Positions 177 through 8,691 of a stretch of DNA of 33,226 nt are shown here, one piece after another. Below the pieces are notes generated by a model, which did no database searches, was not told where the DNA came from, and saw only the letters and a program-made list of their open reading frames with translations. The DNA is from Flavobacteriaceae bacterium (lineage in GTDB: Bacteria > Bacteroidota > Bacteroidia > Flavobacteriales > Flavobacteriaceae): contig JAJUIC010000006.1 of assembly GCA_029265595.1 (NCBI GenBank), forward strand, positions 1 to 33,226. Direction: 5' to 3'. The translations under genes and the position numbers were made by a program. Numbering within the stretch: position 1 is the stretch's first letter; each line of letters begins with the position of its first letter.

Positions 177-1475
177 TTACCTTCTTTTACTTTTTATTTC
201 AGATAATGGAAGTCCCTTTTCTCTTGTATAGATTGAATGTTTAGGACTTCCTATGATTTGTGAAGAATAAACTCCGGAATGGCCTGAAAATAAATACGAA
301 GTACTACAGGCTATTGCGATAAAAACTCCGGCTTCGATTCCAAATAGTTCTATTCCCATTATGGTACAAGCAATAGGAGTATTGGTGGCACCAGCAAAAA
401 CAGCTACAAAACCCATTCCCGCTAACATACTCATGGGCAATGGAATAAACCACACCAACACATTTCCTAATGTTGCCCCTATAAAAAATAGCGGTGTAAC
501 TTCTCCTCCTTTAAATCCAGCGCCCAGGGTGAAAGATGTAAACAAAATTTTAGCTAAAAAATCATAGGAATTCAACTCAATCTGAAAAGCATTCACTATA
601 GTTGGTAATCCAAGTCCAATATATTTAGTCGTTCCAATGGCGAATATTGCAATAGCTAAAATTATACCACCAATAACAGGACGTAATGGGGGATATTTAA
701 TGTTTTTATTAAATAATGAGCTCCAGAAATGTGCAGATTTTGAAAATAACATAGCGGCTAAACCAAATATTATACCCGCAAGTAGCGCCCAAAGTAAATT
801 TATTGGAGTCATTTCAGCAACCGTGGTGATTTTATAATGGATATGCGTAACATCCCAGATATCTGTAAAATAGTCAGCAAGCACAGCCGCCATAAAACTG
901 GGTATGATGGCATCTAAACGAATTCTGCCCAACACCAATACTTCAAGTGCGAAAATTCCACCCGCCAGAGGTGTACCAAAAACAGATGCAAATCCTGCAC
1001 TTATTCCTGCTATTAAAAGTATTCTTCGATCCCTTTTCGATAATTTTAAAATTTTAGTAAATCTATCTGCAATTGCACCACCGATCTGAACTGCTGTTCC
1101 TTCACGTCCGGCAGATCCACCAAAGAGATGGGTTAAAATAGTTCCAAATAGAACAAGGGGCGCCATCCTGAAAGGTATAATTTTCTTTGGAGAATGAAAT
1201 TCTTCTAGCAAAAGGTTATTTCCTTTTACGACACTATTTCCATATAAGTGATAAGACAGCCCTATAATAAAACCACCTATGGGTAGTAAAGCAATAATCC
1301 AGAGATGGGTTTCTCTCCAATTGGTAGCCCATTCCAGGCTGATAAGAAAGAAAGCTGAGATACTTCCCACAATCGCACCGAGAACTATGCAAATAAATAA
1401 CCATTTGATTAAATAAATTAAGGAAGGAATTTGCTCAATTGAGGAGAGAAGTGTTTTGAAATTTCTAATTTTCAT
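177..1475 (-). CDS. CLC-family anion channel/antiporter, probably the fluoride-specific CLC-F subtype
   Basis: 432 aa multi-TM protein with GREGTAVQIG motif. It has GNNLL where chloride CLCs carry GSGIP, and a fluoride riboswitch lies immediately upstream. Confidence 0.9.
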   Translation of the reverse strand: MKIRNFKTLLSSIEQIPSLIYLIKWLFICIVLGAIVGSISAFFLISLEWATNWRETHLWIIALLPIGGFIIGLSYHLYGNSVVKGNNLLLEEFHSPKKIIPFRMAPLVLFGTILTHLFGGSAGREGTAVQIGGAIADRFTKILKLSKRDRRILLIAGISAGFASVFGTPLAGGIFALEVLVLGRIRLDAIIPSFMAAVLADYFTDIWDVTHIHYKITTVAEMTPINLLWALLAGIIFGLAAMLFSKSAHFWSSLFNKNIKYPPLRPVIGGIILAIAIFAIGTTKYIGLGLPTIVNAFQIELNSYDFLAKILFTSFTLGAGFKGGEVTPLFFIGATLGNVLVWFIPLPMSMLAGMGFVAVFAGATNTPIACTIMGIELFGIEAGVFIAIACSTSYLFSGHSGVYSSQIIGSPKHSIYTREKGLPLSEIKSKRR

Positions 1476-1792: not shown

Positions 1793-1820
1793 TAAAGGGG
1801 AATAGCTAAAGGGGAATAGC
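1793..1820. repeat. Tandem duplication of TAAAGGGGAATAGC (2 x 14 bp)
   Basis: Direct reading: taaaggggaatagc at 1793-1806 and 1807-1820. Confidence 0.95.
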
Positions 1821-1855
1821 TAGACGACAACACGCGCTGCGATGTTGTATTCCCC
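1811..1855. repeat. Imperfect palindrome, copy A: GGGGAATA..ACAACACGC gct GCGaTGTTGT..TATTCCCC
   Basis: Nested inverted arms with one bulged base; a related hairpin occurs in the opposite orientation at 5415-5481. Confidence 0.75.
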
Positions 1856-2141: not shown

Positions 2142-2413
2142 TTCAGTTGCACTACCTTTTGATGCAAAAGATACTGGACATGGAACTAGCGGCCTGCATA
2201 AAGCCGCTTGCTGCGCCGCTATTTATAAGGCCTTTCCTAATTCCATATCCAGAAAGGGAAAGCCACATCAAAAGGTAATGCATACAGCACTGAAAGAAGT
2301 AAATGGAATTTAACCCAGGACATTTTCGTTCTTGATGGAAAGAATGCCCCAAAACTTTAGACGGGCAAAAAGAAAAAAATCAAAGGAAAATGCACCAGAT
2401 AAAAAAAGTAAAT
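2142..2413 (+). repeat. ~272-bp repeat, copy A, containing a nested palindrome (2149-2281)
   Basis: Near-identical in blocks to the reverse complement of 4781-5050. Outer arms GCACTACCTTTTGATG / CATCAAAAGGTAATGC, middle arms GGACATGGAACTAG / CTAATTCCATATCC. Confidence 0.9.
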
Positions 2414-2552
2414 GGTCAGAGCATCTGGATATAAGCCGCTTTTCCTGTTATACCGGTGATTAATCAGTCATTCTTACAAGTGTTCCTCAGGGGCAAATAT
2501 TACCGGCACCACTCCATGATAAAGTCTCTAAAGTCATTTCACCTATTTTCAG

Positions 2553-3138: not shown

Positions 3139-4347
3139 TTAAGATAATTTGGACTGCAAAAGGTCCATATCCTCTCCTATTTTCTGATCTACCACCCTGG
3201 CATATATTTGAGTGGTGGACAGTTTAGAGTGCCCCAGAAGCTTGGAAACGGTTTCTATGGGCACACCATTGGAAAGAGTGATTGTAGTGGCAAAGGTATG
3301 CCTGGCAACGTGGAAACTGAGCTTCTTAGGAATCTTACATTGGCTTGCAATTTCTTTAAGATAGTTGTTTGTTTTCTGGTTGCTGTAAACAGGAAGTAAA
3401 AACTCCGAAACTGGGTTCCGGTACTTTTGCAGTATATCCCAGGCCTTCTCCAGTAAGGGTATCTTCATAGGAGTCTGGCTCTTTTCTCGCCTACAGTAGA
3501 TCCAGTCCTTTCCATTGATTCCCTTGATCAGGTTTTCAGGAGTAAGGTTCTTTACATCTATATAGGAAAGACCGGTATAGCAGGCAAAAAGAAAAATATC
3601 TTTTGTGGTTTCCAGGGTGGCACGTGAGAATCGGGTCTCCTCAATATAATTTAGCTCCCTTTGATTTAAATAAGCACGATCAAACTTCTCGAACTTCATT
3701 TTGAAGTCCCGAAAGGGACTCTTTTCCATCCATCCCAGCTTGATCGCCAGGTTCATGAGCTTTTTGAATCGCTCCAGATGTTTCATGGTCCCGTTATTGC
3801 TTAGCTGCTTCTTTCCGCTCTTATCCTTTTGCCGCCTCAGGAAACTATCGAATCCTGTTACAAATTGATAGGAGATGTTCTTAAGGTAGATGTTAGAGGT
3901 CTTGTGAGCTTTGGTAAGGTAATCCATTAAATATTTTTCCGTAGCTCCATAATTCTTCAAGGTGCCTGGCTTGAGAACTTCTCCCATGGTCTGATTATGA
4001 TGCTGGATAACATCCTTTAATGTCTTGGAGGTAGCGTCTGATCCCAGAAATCTGGATTTAACCGCCTGGGCAGTAATCACCCGGTCTTCCTTTAGAAGCT
4101 CTTCATAGCACTGAAGGAGTCTTGCATATTTTGCATCCAGATAATTGTTCATCACTGTAGCCCCAGGATTCCTGCCCTTCAATCTTCGGGTGCGTTCATC
4201 CCAGGATTCCGGGAGGCATTGTCTTCTTAAGCTGATTTCGGCACGGCGACCGTTAATGGTCACCCTTGCATAAATAGGTGCGAGAGTGTCCTTCATTTTG
4301 GTGGTATTTAACCAGAATAAGATGCGAAAAGTTGCTTGTTGTTCCAT
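3139..4347 (-). CDS. Tyrosine-type site-specific integrase (Bacteroidetes type), integrase A
   Basis: Catalytic signature ACYTGLSYIDVKNL ... HVARHTFATTITLSNGVPIETVSKLLGHSKLSTTQIYARV. Start assigned to MEQQATF; the ORF extends to 4377. Confidence 0.95.
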   Translation of the reverse strand: MEQQATFRILFWLNTTKMKDTLAPIYARVTINGRRAEISLRRQCLPESWDERTRRLKGRNPGATVMNNYLDAKYARLLQCYEELLKEDRVITAQAVKSRFLGSDATSKTLKDVIQHHNQTMGEVLKPGTLKNYGATEKYLMDYLTKAHKTSNIYLKNISYQFVTGFDSFLRRQKDKSGKKQLSNNGTMKHLERFKKLMNLAIKLGWMEKSPFRDFKMKFEKFDRAYLNQRELNYIEETRFSRATLETTKDIFLFACYTGLSYIDVKNLTPENLIKGINGKDWIYCRREKSQTPMKIPLLEKAWDILQKYRNPVSEFLLPVYSNQKTNNYLKEIASQCKIPKKLSFHVARHTFATTITLSNGVPIETVSKLLGHSKLSTTQIYARVVDQKIGEDMDLLQSKLS

Positions 4348-4360
4348 AGCCTTTGTTTTT

Positions 4361-4467
4361 GGTAACCGATTTAACATGTGAGACGAAAGTCATATCATCT
4401 GTCAAGTCAGCCAGGCTAAAGGAAAGATAAGAAAAAACAGGTAACCGAATAGGTAACCGAATAGGTC
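4361..4467. promoter_or_regulatory. Putative arm-type integrase sites of element A (GGTAACCGA repeats)
   Basis: GGTAACCGAt at 4361-4370, then the tandem GGTAACCGAATAGGTAACCGAATAGGTCAC around 4440-4467, between integrase A and the 4571 att copy. Confidence 0.5.
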
Positions 4468-4570: not shown

Positions 4571-4585
4571 GTCGGGGTGGCAGGA
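4571..4585 (-). repeat. Internal att site: 15-bp copy of the tRNA-Pro 3' end
   Basis: GTCGGGGTGGCAGGA is identical to 8496-8510, the 3' end of tRNA-Pro plus 1 nt. Confidence 0.8.
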
Positions 4586-4642
4586 AACTGAAATATCTTC
4601 GTAATCAGTTTAAGCCCAGTACTTTACGCTTCACTAAAATGG

Positions 4643-4673
4643 ATGTATTCACTGAATCATTCACTAAATATGG
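4643..4673 (+). repeat. Putative integrase arm-type site, distal end of element B
   Basis: ATGTATTCACTGAATCATTCACTAAATATGG; direct copy with 2 mismatches at 8371-8401. Confidence 0.75.
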
Positions 4674-4780
4674 AAGAACATAGCATTCATTGTGAACAAT
4701 AGTCTTTAATACTATAAAGGTACAAATTTAATTAGAAACTATTTTTACCAACCAAACATTAGACCTCCAGTCACTCTAAA

Positions 4781-5050
4781 CATTTACTTTTTTTATCTGG
4801 TGCATTTTCCTTTGATTTTTTTCTTTTCGCGGTGCTGAGTTAATAGCCCTCTTCCAATCGAGAACGAAAATCCTGGAGGTTCCATTTCATTTACTTCTTT
4901 CAGAGCTGTATGCATTACCTTTTGATGTTGCTTTACATTTCTGGATATGGAATTAGGAAAGGTCTTATAAATAGCGGCGAAGAAGCGGCTTTATGCAGGC
5001 CGCTAATTCCATATCCGGTATCTTTTGCATCAAAAGGTAATGCAACTGAA
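4781..5050 (-). repeat. ~270-bp repeat, copy B (inverted relative to 2142-2413), with nested palindrome 4912-5043
   Basis: Perfect outer arms GCATTACCTTTTGATG (4912-4927) / CATCAAAAGGTAATGC (5028-5043). Perfect middle arms GGATATGGAATTAG (4943-4956) / CTAATTCCATATCC (5003-5016). Confidence 0.92.
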
Positions 5051-5414
5051 CTATTGAATGGAAATTCGAAGTTTGACAAATAATCTTTCCAAAGATCAGT
5101 TCTTTACCTAATAAGACGATTTCATAGCCGAGATATTATGATAAGAGATTTCCCTGTTTTTTTCCACTCAGTTTAATTTCTTCTGGCAAAAAGAAAAGCG
5201 AACGGAGCGAAGCGAAGTGCTGTAAGCCCCAAATCTACCAGAACTAATACTATTTTGCGAGGCAAGAATCGGAACGTAAATGGTCACTTTTTAGGTGGCA
5301 GATTTTTGTTATGGTGCAAATTTTCTCCGCTGAGCCCTTTAAAAACGGGAGGTTGATATTTTTTTGGCGCAAAAAATTAGTTGAAACACACTTTTTAAAA
5401 ACGTAAGTATCTGA

Positions 5415-5481
5415 AAATGAAGGGGGAATGAATTCTTAACATCGCACGGCGTGTTATCCTCTTGCTATCCCCCCTTCATTT
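5415..5481. repeat. Palindrome copy B, ~50 bp 3' of the Lnu-like gene
   Basis: AAATGAAGGGGG ... CCCCCTTCATTT outer arms; inner TAACATCGC acg GCGTGTTA with a bulged T. Confidence 0.8.
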
Positions 5482-5533
5482 GTACAATTCAGGATTTTCC
5501 TGGTCAAATTATATACCTGGTCATCATAAATTC

Positions 5534-6304
5534 TCAATCGATTCTTGTCAATAGTCTTTTCAGTTTAGAGTCAACATTCAAATGTTCAAAAAGTTTTCCG
5601 GAAAGTTTTAATGACTCCTGAAAAGCCGTTCTAATGTTTTCCCCATTTAGGTTCGATGTTGTCAGCTGAAATTGTGAATACCAGCCCCTACCAATATCCT
5701 TCTCTAAACTTTTGGTAGGGCTTTCCCAGTGTTCTGTTCGATTGGTTGCTATGCGGATTAACCAAAGTAAATATTTCTGAACATTCGCTAGGCTCTGATT
5801 AGCATGGGCAAATTCCTGTCTTTTTATTAAGTTACTTGTGGTCAGTAAAACGTTTAGCAGAGATTGACTCAGCCATAAAATATTCTTGTCTGTTGTTCTA
5901 TCAGGTTTCCTGGCTTTGATTTGGTTGAGCGTAGCAGCCAAAAATCCATCTTTATCCACTAGAATCATTTTGTCAAACTCACTAAACTCCACCACCCCAT
6001 CCCAAGACTTAATAATGTCTATTTCATCAATTGCCAAAAAATGAAATTCTCCTCTTACCATATTTTCAAAAATGGCGACTTCGCTGCCGTATTCATTAGT
6101 AAAATATAAGATTATAGGATGAATTTGATTTACCCAATTCTCAGCCAGGAAACTTTCCTTGTCTTTTAGAAAAAAATAAAATTCAATATCTGAATATTGG
6201 TCACCCTCATCTTTGGTAAATGAACCATACATTAAAGCGGCAGAAACGTTTTCATCTTTTTGAGCAATTGATTTTGTGGTACTAATCATCTGTAACTGTG
6301 TCAT
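5534..6304 (-). CDS. Nucleotidyltransferase, lincosamide nucleotidyltransferase Lnu(B/F/G)-like
   Basis: 256 aa with AALMYGSFTKDEGDQYSDIEFYFF (GS..x..SDxE nucleotidyltransferase core), then LYFTNEYGSEVAIFENMVRGEFHF and LVDKDG, as in Lnu(F)-type enzymes. Confidence 0.75.
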   Translation of the reverse strand: MTQLQMISTTKSIAQKDENVSAALMYGSFTKDEGDQYSDIEFYFFLKDKESFLAENWVNQIHPIILYFTNEYGSEVAIFENMVRGEFHFLAIDEIDIIKSWDGVVEFSEFDKMILVDKDGFLAATLNQIKARKPDRTTDKNILWLSQSLLNVLLTTSNLIKRQEFAHANQSLANVQKYLLWLIRIATNRTEHWESPTKSLEKDIGRGWYSQFQLTTSNLNGENIRTAFQESLKLSGKLFEHLNVDSKLKRLLTRID

Positions 6305-6679
6305 TGTTTTGATTTTAAAAGTTAATAAACAAACTTCCTTCTTCCTTTCGAAAGTAGAAGTTGTTATGGTTTTTTCTCTGTCGGACAGTTACTTATAGCT
6401 TCATTGGAGTTGAGTTCTTTCGTTTGTTGGTTTATTACTCGTGTTCGGGCAAAAGGGCCTTAAATCGTCTTAAAAAACGAATATAGCTATTTATCATATC
6501 ATGGCCGGCCCAAGAACTGCTGGAAATCCTGTAGGTTTAAGATATATTCCTGTGCTGACTGGAATGCAGCTCCTAAAATTCTGGAATTATGGACGGGAAA
6601 TAGGATCGATTCTAATGTTTATATCCTCCTCTCTGGAAGGAGAGAAATGTCTGCTGCTGAAAAGAAAAAGAATCCCTTT

Positions 6680-6775
6680 CTATTCTCCTATTTCTGCAAG
6701 GTGACTAGCTTTTCCAATACCAGAACGACACAAAATATCACGAGCTTTTGTCAAGGTTAATTTCTTTTTTTTCAT
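6680..6775 (-). CDS. Possible 31-aa small ORF or remnant in element B (MKKKKLTLTKARDILCRSGIGKASHLAEIGE)
   Basis: ATG start preceded by TGCTG. The string TGCTGATGAAAAAAAA is shared with the equivalent position of element A (ORF 2671-2838). Confidence 0.2.
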   Translation of the reverse strand: MKKKKLTLTKARDILCRSGIGKASHLAEIGE

Positions 6776-6806
6776 CAGCAATATTTTCTTAAAAAAAATG
6801 ATATTT

Positions 6807-7000
6807 TGATGACGAGCTCTTGAATCCCAATAATAATAAAGGTTTGGGAAGCATCAAAAAGTCATTGCTTCATCATTTCTGATTCTCTGAACTGTAGATC
6901 TGGCATCATTATTATTTTTGATGACATAATGATGACAAAATGATGACAGCCTTAGCCCCTACTATCACAGAGTTCAGCTCATTCCGTCATCGATTCATCA
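6807..7000. repeat. Short-repeat array B downstream of integrase B (TGATGAC)
   Basis: TGATGAC at 6807, 6919, 6930 and 6941 (the last three at exact 11-bp period), plus inverted GTCATCGATTCATCA near 6986-7000. Confidence 0.75.
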
Positions 7001-7047
7001 AAATTCTTGAGCAAAAACTATTTTTCAAAGCAAGTACTAATTAATAA

Positions 7048-8280
7048 TTATCTTGCCTTTTTATTCAAAATTTTTTGATCCAGGTTGGCGATATCGGAAC
7101 TGAGCTTACTTTCAAGTACTCTGGCATAAATTTGTGTTGTAGAGAGTTTAGTATGTCCTAACAGTTTAGATACCGTCTCTATTGGAACTCCATTGGAAAG
7201 TGTTACCACCGTGGCAAAGGTATGCCTGGCAGAGTGAAAGGTGATTTTCTTCCTTACTCCAATTGACTGCATGATCTCTTTTAAGTACTTGTTGATCTTC
7301 TGATTGGAAATAACTGGGAAAACGTCCTTTGCATCCTCTAGTCCATACCCTTGATATCTTTTAATAATGTCTTTGGCGGATTCGAGCAGAGGTATCTTAA
7401 CGGACTGCTGAGTCTTTTCTCGTTTGGTATAGATCCAATCCTTACCATCCATGCCTTTCACGATTTGGTCAGTAGTGAGTTCCTTTAGATCAATATAGGA
7501 CAGACCGGAATAGCATGAGAACAAAAACATATCCTTCACCCGCTCCAGGGATTCACTGGTAAAAATAGTTTCCTCTAGCATGTGCAGCTCCCGCTCGGTT
7601 AGAAATTGCCTATCATTCTTTTCAAATTTGAAGCTATAGCTTCTAAAGGCGTTCTTCTCAAGCCACTCTAATTTGATTGCTAGGTTCAGCAGTTTCTTTA
7701 AGCGTTCCAGATGTTTCATTGTTCCGTTGGTTCCACAGGTTTTTCTATTTTTTTTCGGGCTGTAGCTCCTCAGGTACATTTCAAACTCTGTAATGAACTG
7801 ATAATTGATGTGCTTCAGGTAAATATCATCTGTTTTCTTTTTCCTCTTTAAAAACTCCTCAAGATAGTTTGCTGTGGTATGGTAATTCTTAAGCGTTCCC
7901 CATTTAAGAATATCTTTCATTTTTTCATTATGGTAAGCCACGATATCCTTAATGGTTTTATGATCCTCATCTAATCCCAGGTAAGAAGCTTTAATCTTGG
8001 CAGCGGTAATAAGGGAATCTTTATCCAATAGGTTCTTGTGGGTGTCCAGTAATTTTGAATATACCTGATCCAAATAACTGTTCAATTTTTTGATTTTTGG
8101 AGTGCTTCCTCTGAGTCTTCCTTTGGAAGAATCCCATTCATTCACTGAAATCTTCCTTTTGAGGCTCATTTCAGAACATTTTCCATTCACGGTAATCCGG
8201 GTGTAAATGGACACATCTTTAGAATTCCCGTTTAACTTTCTGGTAAAGAAAAGCACGGAGAAGGTAGTAAAATCAGGCAT
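7048..8280 (-). CDS. Tyrosine-type site-specific integrase (Bacteroidetes type), integrase B
   Basis: CYSGLSYIDLKEL ... HSARHTFATVVTLSNGVPIETVSKLLGHTKLSTTQIYARV; clear paralogue of integrase A. Start assigned to MPDFTTF; the ORF extends to 8328. Confidence 0.95.
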   Translation of the reverse strand: MPDFTTFSVLFFTRKLNGNSKDVSIYTRITVNGKCSEMSLKRKISVNEWDSSKGRLRGSTPKIKKLNSYLDQVYSKLLDTHKNLLDKDSLITAAKIKASYLGLDEDHKTIKDIVAYHNEKMKDILKWGTLKNYHTTANYLEEFLKRKKKTDDIYLKHINYQFITEFEMYLRSYSPKKNRKTCGTNGTMKHLERLKKLLNLAIKLEWLEKNAFRSYSFKFEKNDRQFLTERELHMLEETIFTSESLERVKDMFLFSCYSGLSYIDLKELTTDQIVKGMDGKDWIYTKREKTQQSVKIPLLESAKDIIKRYQGYGLEDAKDVFPVISNQKINKYLKEIMQSIGVRKKITFHSARHTFATVVTLSNGVPIETVSKLLGHTKLSTTQIYARVLESKLSSDIANLDQKILNKKAR

Positions 8281-8370
8281 TTTGAGCGTCTTTAAATGAT
8301 ACAATGGTTTTGTAAAGACGAAAGTCAAATCAACGTAATGTTCTTCTAAGGTAGTGAATTGGTAGAAAGA

Positions 8371-8401
8371 ATGTATTCACCGAATCATTCACTAAACATG
8401 G
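8371..8401 (+). repeat. Putative integrase arm-type site, integrase-proximal end of element B
   Basis: ATGTATTCACCGAATCATTCACTAAACATGG, direct repeat of 4643-4673. Confidence 0.75.
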
Positions 8402-8496
8402 TGAATTCATATGATAACACCTGATATCAGTAAAAACGAAAAACACTGAAAATCAAGTGATTAACAGTGTTTTAGTTCCTATTTCAGTAAGGTTCG

Positions 8497-8571
8497 TCGG
8501 GGTGGCAGGATTCGAACCTGCGGCCTCCTGCTCCCAAAGCAGGCGCGATAACCGGGCTACGCTACACCCCG
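8497..8571 (-). tRNA. tRNA-Pro (anticodon TGG)
   Basis: Minus strand CGGGGTGTAGCGTAGCCCGG..CCTGCTTTGGGAGCAGG..GGTTCGAATCCTGCCACCCCGA; acceptor CGGGGTG/CACCCCG. Confidence 0.96.
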
Positions 8572-8606: not shown

Positions 8607-8691
8607 CGGAGAGTGTGAGATTCGAACTCACGCGACGATTGCTCGTCGACAGTTTAGCAAACTGCTCCATTAACCACTCTGGCAACTCTCC
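8607..8691 (-). tRNA. tRNA-Ser (anticodon GCT)
   Basis: Minus strand GGAGAGTTGCCAGAGTGG..CAGTTTGCTAAACTG..long variable arm..GTTCGAATCTCACACTCTCCG. Confidence 0.96.

Follow-up and report, generated by a model that had tools for sequence, protein, structure and literature searches.

A covarying nested hairpin of fixed strand polarity near oriT-like sites in mobile elements of Flavobacteriaceae: a candidate single-strand origin

Two copies of a nested palindrome of about 130 bases, one inverted with respect to the other, lie in the window analysed here (33,226 nucleotides of contig JAJUIC010000006.1 from a Flavobacteriaceae bacterium). An original prediction, made from the sequence alone, took them to be a structured RNA or a folded single-stranded DNA substrate rather than a product of random decay. 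This raises the question of which strand folds, what kind of element carries the structure and what it does there. The two copies and the strand of each that is called functional below are:

2148 to 2279, minus strand (functional strand): nested hairpin, copy A; covariance model 105.5 bits, fold z -6.7
4914 to 5044, plus strand (functional strand): nested hairpin, copy B; covariance model 106.3 bits, fold z -8.2

Copy B has perfect outer arms of 16 bp (GCATTACCTTTTGATG / CATCAAAAGGTAATGC) and perfect middle arms of 14 bp (GGATATGGAATTAG / CTAATTCCATATCC) that enclose a GC-rich apical hairpin, just as had been predicted. Copy A is copy B inverted, and the three differences between the arms all fall on one arm and become G-U pairs on the minus strand, also in agreement with the prediction. 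The plus strand of copy B folds at -64.3 kcal/mol (z -8.2) and the minus strand of copy A at -67.0 kcal/mol (z -6.7), and in neither case did any of 200 shuffled sequences fold as well. The repeat unit is longer than had been recognised, with homology between the copies (2142-2429 in A, 4766-5055 in B) running on past the palindrome for about 140 nt, and this on a single side. This extension holds two direct repeats:

2280 to 2306, minus strand: direct repeat 1, copy A; from sequence reading and the conserved 5' flank
2378 to 2414, minus strand: direct repeat 2, copy A; from sequence reading and a strict-pattern scan of loci
4781 to 4817, plus strand: direct repeat 2, copy B; read from the sequence, strict pattern in 49 of 84 loci
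4888 to 4913, plus strand: direct repeat 1, copy B (CATTTACTTCTTTCAGAGCTGTATGC); 5' flank conserved in 75 of 84 loci and absent from the 3' flank

The conserved flank formed by the two repeats is thus one-sided and, where an ssb gene is present, lies between the hairpin and ssb; on the 3' side neither conserved sequence nor a U-run was seen across the 84 loci. On the hairpin-to-ssb side of four loci (L068, L022, L075 and L062) a short ORF, MKSY...KKENALDIISKS, overlaps direct repeat 2. This ORF is present in several elements, not in all, and it is therefore doubtful that it is coding.

Relatives were collected with BLASTN and a covariance model, the route that the prediction had proposed. The genome of origin, which is 75% complete, contains the two hairpin copies and otherwise a single fragment match of 24 bp. 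A BLASTN search of 398 genomes of the order found homologues in further genera of the Flavobacteriaceae, and a scan of GTDB contigs for the apical motif recovered about 50 flavobacterial copies. A covariance model based on 32 sequences detected copies in 81 of the 400 Flavobacteriaceae genomes scanned, with at least 155 relatives listed and at most eight per genome; in a sample of the whole class only four of 395 genomes had copies, one of the four being outside the family. Neither hairpin matches an Rfam family at E values of up to 1, which bears out the view that no known RNA family is represented, and BLASTN of the element against 72,556 plasmids and against phages gave no match.

Across these relatives the shape of the hairpin is kept more than its sequence. 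An outer stem (P1) leads through an asymmetric internal loop to a middle stem (P2), a purine bulge, a further stem (P3) and an invariant apical module, TATAAAWAG...CGG.TTTATGC, with an invariant U-G pair, a bulged C and a UA/GG loop. The sequence of P2 varies freely with pairing kept, and the apical UAUAAA/UUUAUG, including the U-G pair, is nearly without variation. In 84 distinct rows selected by the model, 91.3% of cells pair, compared with 80.5% after shuffling and 40-55% when slid; this alignment favours the model, and an alignment made with MAFFT agrees with it (87.6% paired vs 73.8%). The same 84 rows show changes on both sides in 26 of 36 pairs, and 332 compensated cells compared with 104 in shuffles. 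The absence of covariation that would have told against a folded nucleic acid was not seen, and the case for one, which had begun with G-U pairs at three sites, now stands on covariation over 84 distinct copies.

The polarity of the fold can also be read from these copies. The apical U-G pair is invariant in 88 of 88 copies, where the opposite strand would have A-C, and among the variable pairs there are 165 G-U pairs compared with 40 A-C. The functional strand, plus for copy B and minus for copy A, is the more stable in 84 of 84 copies with RNA parameters and in 75 of 83 with DNA parameters. Because the U-G pair is invariant, G-U pairs outnumber A-C pairs and stability is biased in the same direction, the hairpin is shown to work in single-stranded, folded form with one polarity, and the earlier choice of the minus strand of copy A was correct. 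These strand computations fit RNA and single-stranded DNA alike.

Clustering of the neighbouring genes, with names assigned by Pfam and NCBIfam, revealed a backbone in the order hairpin with two direct repeats, ssb, radC, oriT-like site, bfmA (BfmA/BtgA mobilization protein), MobB relaxase and type IV secretion coupling protein. Among 84 loci selected by the model, ssb is present in 67 and in the same direction in all 67, its start lying mostly at about +260 nt, and the direction is likewise constant for radC (47 of 47), BfmA (63 of 63) and MobB (63 of 64). Both ssb and radC point towards the oriT-like site, and the strand from which they are read lies opposite the functional one of the hairpin. 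MobB was present in 73 of 81 genomes with the hairpin compared with 38 of 319 without it. Small elements that have neither ssb nor mob genes retain the hairpin, the repeats and usually the oriT-like site. It is well supported that the hairpin and its direct repeats form a cis-acting site of a family of Flavobacteriaceae ICE/IME elements, and the hairpin is part of a conserved conjugative-element module with an oriT-like site nearby, a context that could not be seen from the window alone.

The oriT-like site is a conserved site upstream of bfmA, consisting of GGAATAGCAAGAGGGTAAC and a short imperfect inverted repeat. It lies within 3 kb of the hairpin in 69 of the 84 loci, which had been picked by the hairpin model alone, and a control with reversed sequence gave no hits in 704 kb. 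Two layouts are found. In one the hairpin precedes the oriT-like site; the distance is mostly +1.2 to +2.2 kb, a stretch that holds ssb and radC, and in some cases +230 to +900 nt. In the other, which is mainly that of small elements lacking transfer genes, the oriT-like site precedes the hairpin, at about -400 to -950 nt. Orientation relative to the hairpin is identical in both layouts and the same in 70 of 71 sites, on either side, a constancy that may stem from few independent rearrangements. The functional strand of the hairpin reads, at the oriT-like site, the inverted repeat and then CCCTCTTG followed directly by CT. Presumably, by analogy with MOBP oriT sites, the nick would fall between CCCTCTTG and CT on the functional strand, and that strand would then be the transferred one. 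In the window each oriT-like site lies about 400-490 nt from its hairpin, as in the class of small elements:

1813 to 1831, plus strand: oriT-like site of copy A; one mismatch to the consensus upstream of bfmA, short inverted repeat follows
5453 to 5471, minus strand: oriT-like site of copy B; one mismatch, short inverted repeat follows on the minus strand

MobB loci without this hairpin have the oriT-like site with zero mismatches in 20 of 20 cases. At about 500 nt upstream of ssb some of these loci (L251-L270) have different nested palindromes, for example CGGTTTTCTTAACAGGATTTTCG...CGAAAATCCTTAAAAACCG in L254, perhaps an analogous site that arose there.

The elements that carry the two copies in the window can be outlined from the following features:

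3139 to 4377, minus strand: tyrosine recombinase (integrase 1); PF17293, PF13102, PF00589
4571 to 4585, plus strand: 15-bp copy of the 3' end of tRNA-Pro, probable attachment-site repeat; exact direct repeat of 8496-8510
4635 to 4673, plus strand: 39-nt repeat upstream of integrase 1; 87% identical to 8363-8401
5534 to 6304, minus strand: lincosamide nucleotidyltransferase-like cargo gene; lnu(H) model 440.8 bits, under the cut-off of 540; PF21418
7048 to 8328, minus strand: tyrosine recombinase (integrase 2); PF17293, PF13102, PF00589
8363 to 8401, plus strand: 39-nt repeat upstream of integrase 2; pairs with 4635-4673
8496 to 8510, plus strand: probable attachment site within the 3' end of tRNA-Pro (gene 8496-8571)

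Since the 15-bp tRNA-Pro repeat bounds both ends, 4571-8510 is probably a complete mobilizable element of 3.94 kb with an integrase, the lnu(H)-like gene, an oriT-like site and hairpin B; in the control for this repeat, at least two matches with no more than three mismatches arose in 10 of 100 shuffles. Both 39-nt repeats sit just inside the probable attachment repeats and are perhaps integrase arm sites. Next to the 3.94-kb element lies another, which contains integrase 1 and copy A; its left end was not found. The inverted arrangement of the two hairpins is most likely the result of side-by-side insertion at one tRNA and not of a transposon. Elsewhere in the window a fluoride riboswitch (Rfam RF01734, 1514-1576, minus strand, above the gathering score) lies directly upstream of a gene for a CLC-type channel or transporter (177-1475, minus strand), which for this reason is probably a fluoride exporter. 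A match to a plastid UTR family at 8607-8657 (plus strand), under the Rfam gathering score and antisense to tRNA-Ser, is almost certainly an artefact of the model.

The reading that we prefer, to which we give about an even chance, is that the hairpin is a single-strand origin (sso), or a promoter of the Frpo type that works on single-stranded DNA, located on the transferred strand. The relaxase would nick at the nearby oriT, and the transferred strand would enter the recipient as single-stranded DNA on which the hairpin would fold. A host enzyme, probably RNA polymerase, would recognise the folded hairpin, and the RNA made there would prime synthesis of the second strand. In elements with ssb and radC the hairpin might also launch early transcription of these genes from the single strand. 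Such sso-like behaviour is suggested because the hairpin folds on one strand, is fixed in orientation to the oriT-like site and not in position, and is kept, together with that site, in elements without transfer genes, while taking a fixed place upstream of ssb where ssb is present. The nearby MobB relaxase, BfmA and coupling protein indicate that its carriers move as single-stranded DNA.

Comparison with known systems gives partial likenesses. The sso of ICEBs1 is orientation-specific and lies downstream of oriT, that of most rolling-circle plasmids lies upstream of the double-strand origin, and elements may differ as to which side of the origin their sso occupies (PMC4595007). The flavobacterial hairpin is like ICEBs1 sso1 and the sso of rolling-circle plasmids in its one-strand fold, its occurrence in conjugative elements and its orientation, fixed relative to oriT in 70 of 71 sites over both layouts with the hairpin on either side (PMC4595007). 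It differs in that the ICEBs1 sso consists of three stem-loops, whereas here a single nested hairpin of 130 nt has an invariant apical module and is accompanied by two direct repeats, in another phylum. Frpo-like sequences occur just upstream of ssb, and the Frpo / ssi sites of F-like plasmids share with the present site a long hairpin in that position (PMC11541004). The hairpin stands immediately upstream of ssb, which has the same direction in 67 of 67 cases and starts mostly at about +260 nt, and, with ssb and radC read opposite to it, the functional strand would be their template. Unlike Frpo, the hairpin is found also in small elements that have no gene to express, no sequence likeness was detected by BLASTN in 72,556 plasmids, and no promoter elements could be clearly assigned at the hairpin. 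A position in the leading region agrees with the layout with ssb if the nick falls on the strand proposed above, and disagrees with the small elements; because these place the hairpin across oriT, a leading-region location can hold for one of the layouts at most, and a leading-region promoter as the sole function was rejected. The oriT of BfmA/BtgA-MobB elements resembles the hairpin in its occurrence in the same elements, its orientation and its short distance, but is a distinct conserved site.

Three other readings have to be weighed against a single-strand origin. The chief rival, possible although doubtful, is that the functional strand encodes a structured non-coding RNA which regulates transfer or establishment, the direct repeats being tandem promoters. 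The sRNA RteR of the Bacteroides element CTnDOT, likewise a structured feature of a Bacteroidota conjugative element, is a possible parallel. A strong RNA fold with covariation and many G-U pairs, a strand bias that is bigger with RNA than with DNA parameters and a flank conserved only on the 5' side, like a promoter, would all suit such an RNA. However, the 3' side, with neither conserved sequence nor a U-run, offers no terminator, Rfam has no match, a trans-acting RNA would be needless in each small element without transfer genes, and the constant orientation to oriT would be a coincidence. The likeness to RteR is also limited, since the hairpin and the oriT-like site stay together in cis, no sequence relation is known and transcription of the hairpin is a prediction.

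A site bound by a protein on double-stranded or cruciform DNA, such as one accessory to the relaxosome or one through which the ssb operon is regulated, seems to us improbable. Two direct repeats beside a palindrome are typical of binding sites and the position upstream of ssb is constant, but a double-stranded site predicts no strand bias, which is at odds with the invariant U-G pair and the excess of G-U over A-C. The sequence of P2 is moreover free while its pairing is kept, and copies without ssb are also retained. It is less credible by far that the hairpin is oriT itself, or the end of an IS, a REP element or a MITE, even though it is multicopy and palindromic and a recombinase gene in the window lies between inverted copies of it. 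Its identity with oriT, our first candidate, is opposed by the separate conserved site upstream of bfmA, which is free of mismatches in 20 of 20 MobB loci that lack the hairpin. The genome of origin (75% complete) contains no Y1 transposase (PF01797), several proteins with HUH motifs near copies are relaxases, and a RAYT/REP origin was rejected on these grounds. The conserved neighbours are conjugation genes, and two adjoining elements, one of them with tRNA repeats at its ends, account for the inversion in the window; identification as terminal repeats of an IS or MITE, the outcome that would have overturned the original prediction, did not follow.

In Victivallaceae, Lentisphaeria, Eggerthellaceae, Bacteroidales and Sinomicrobium there are long palindromes, otherwise unrelated, that are tipped by the apical module, and a Sphingobacterium contig on which mobilization genes are present has one too. 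Unrelated long palindromes of other phyla that carry the motif were noted at L102, L114, L036, L085, L129 (Victivallaceae), L028, L018, L039, L078, L035 and L118; those at L028 and L078 lie near mobilization and relaxase genes with the same reading direction, and a gene of the GIY-YIG type follows within about 110 nt at L018 and L039. An association with GIY-YIG genes was dropped, as it concerns two Bacteroidales loci only and a motif scan of all loci was too strict for counting, missing even those two. A 28-bp identity to IncI plasmids was set aside likewise, as it covers one arm of the Sphingobacterium palindrome only and lies inside a coding gene with no matching palindrome. We consider it a long shot that the module is a signal read on single strands by widely conserved machinery, the flavobacterial element being one branch of a cross-phylum class of folded start sites. 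Such a class remains a lead because the exact motif with GCGG was found, in a phylum-wide sample, in the genome of origin only.

As of 2015 virtually nothing was known of second-strand synthesis for any ICE (PMC4595007). A search of the open literature, outside which most subscription papers lie, yielded nothing relevant on single-strand origins or single-stranded DNA promoters in Bacteroides or other Bacteroidota. The conversion of the transferred strand of an ICE to double strand is a largely unknown step, for which the hairpin gives a covariance-modelled site with known strand and position. Together with the oriT-like site it also marks tiny mobilizable elements that have no transfer genes, and one such element in the window carries a lincosamide nucleotidyltransferase-like gene.
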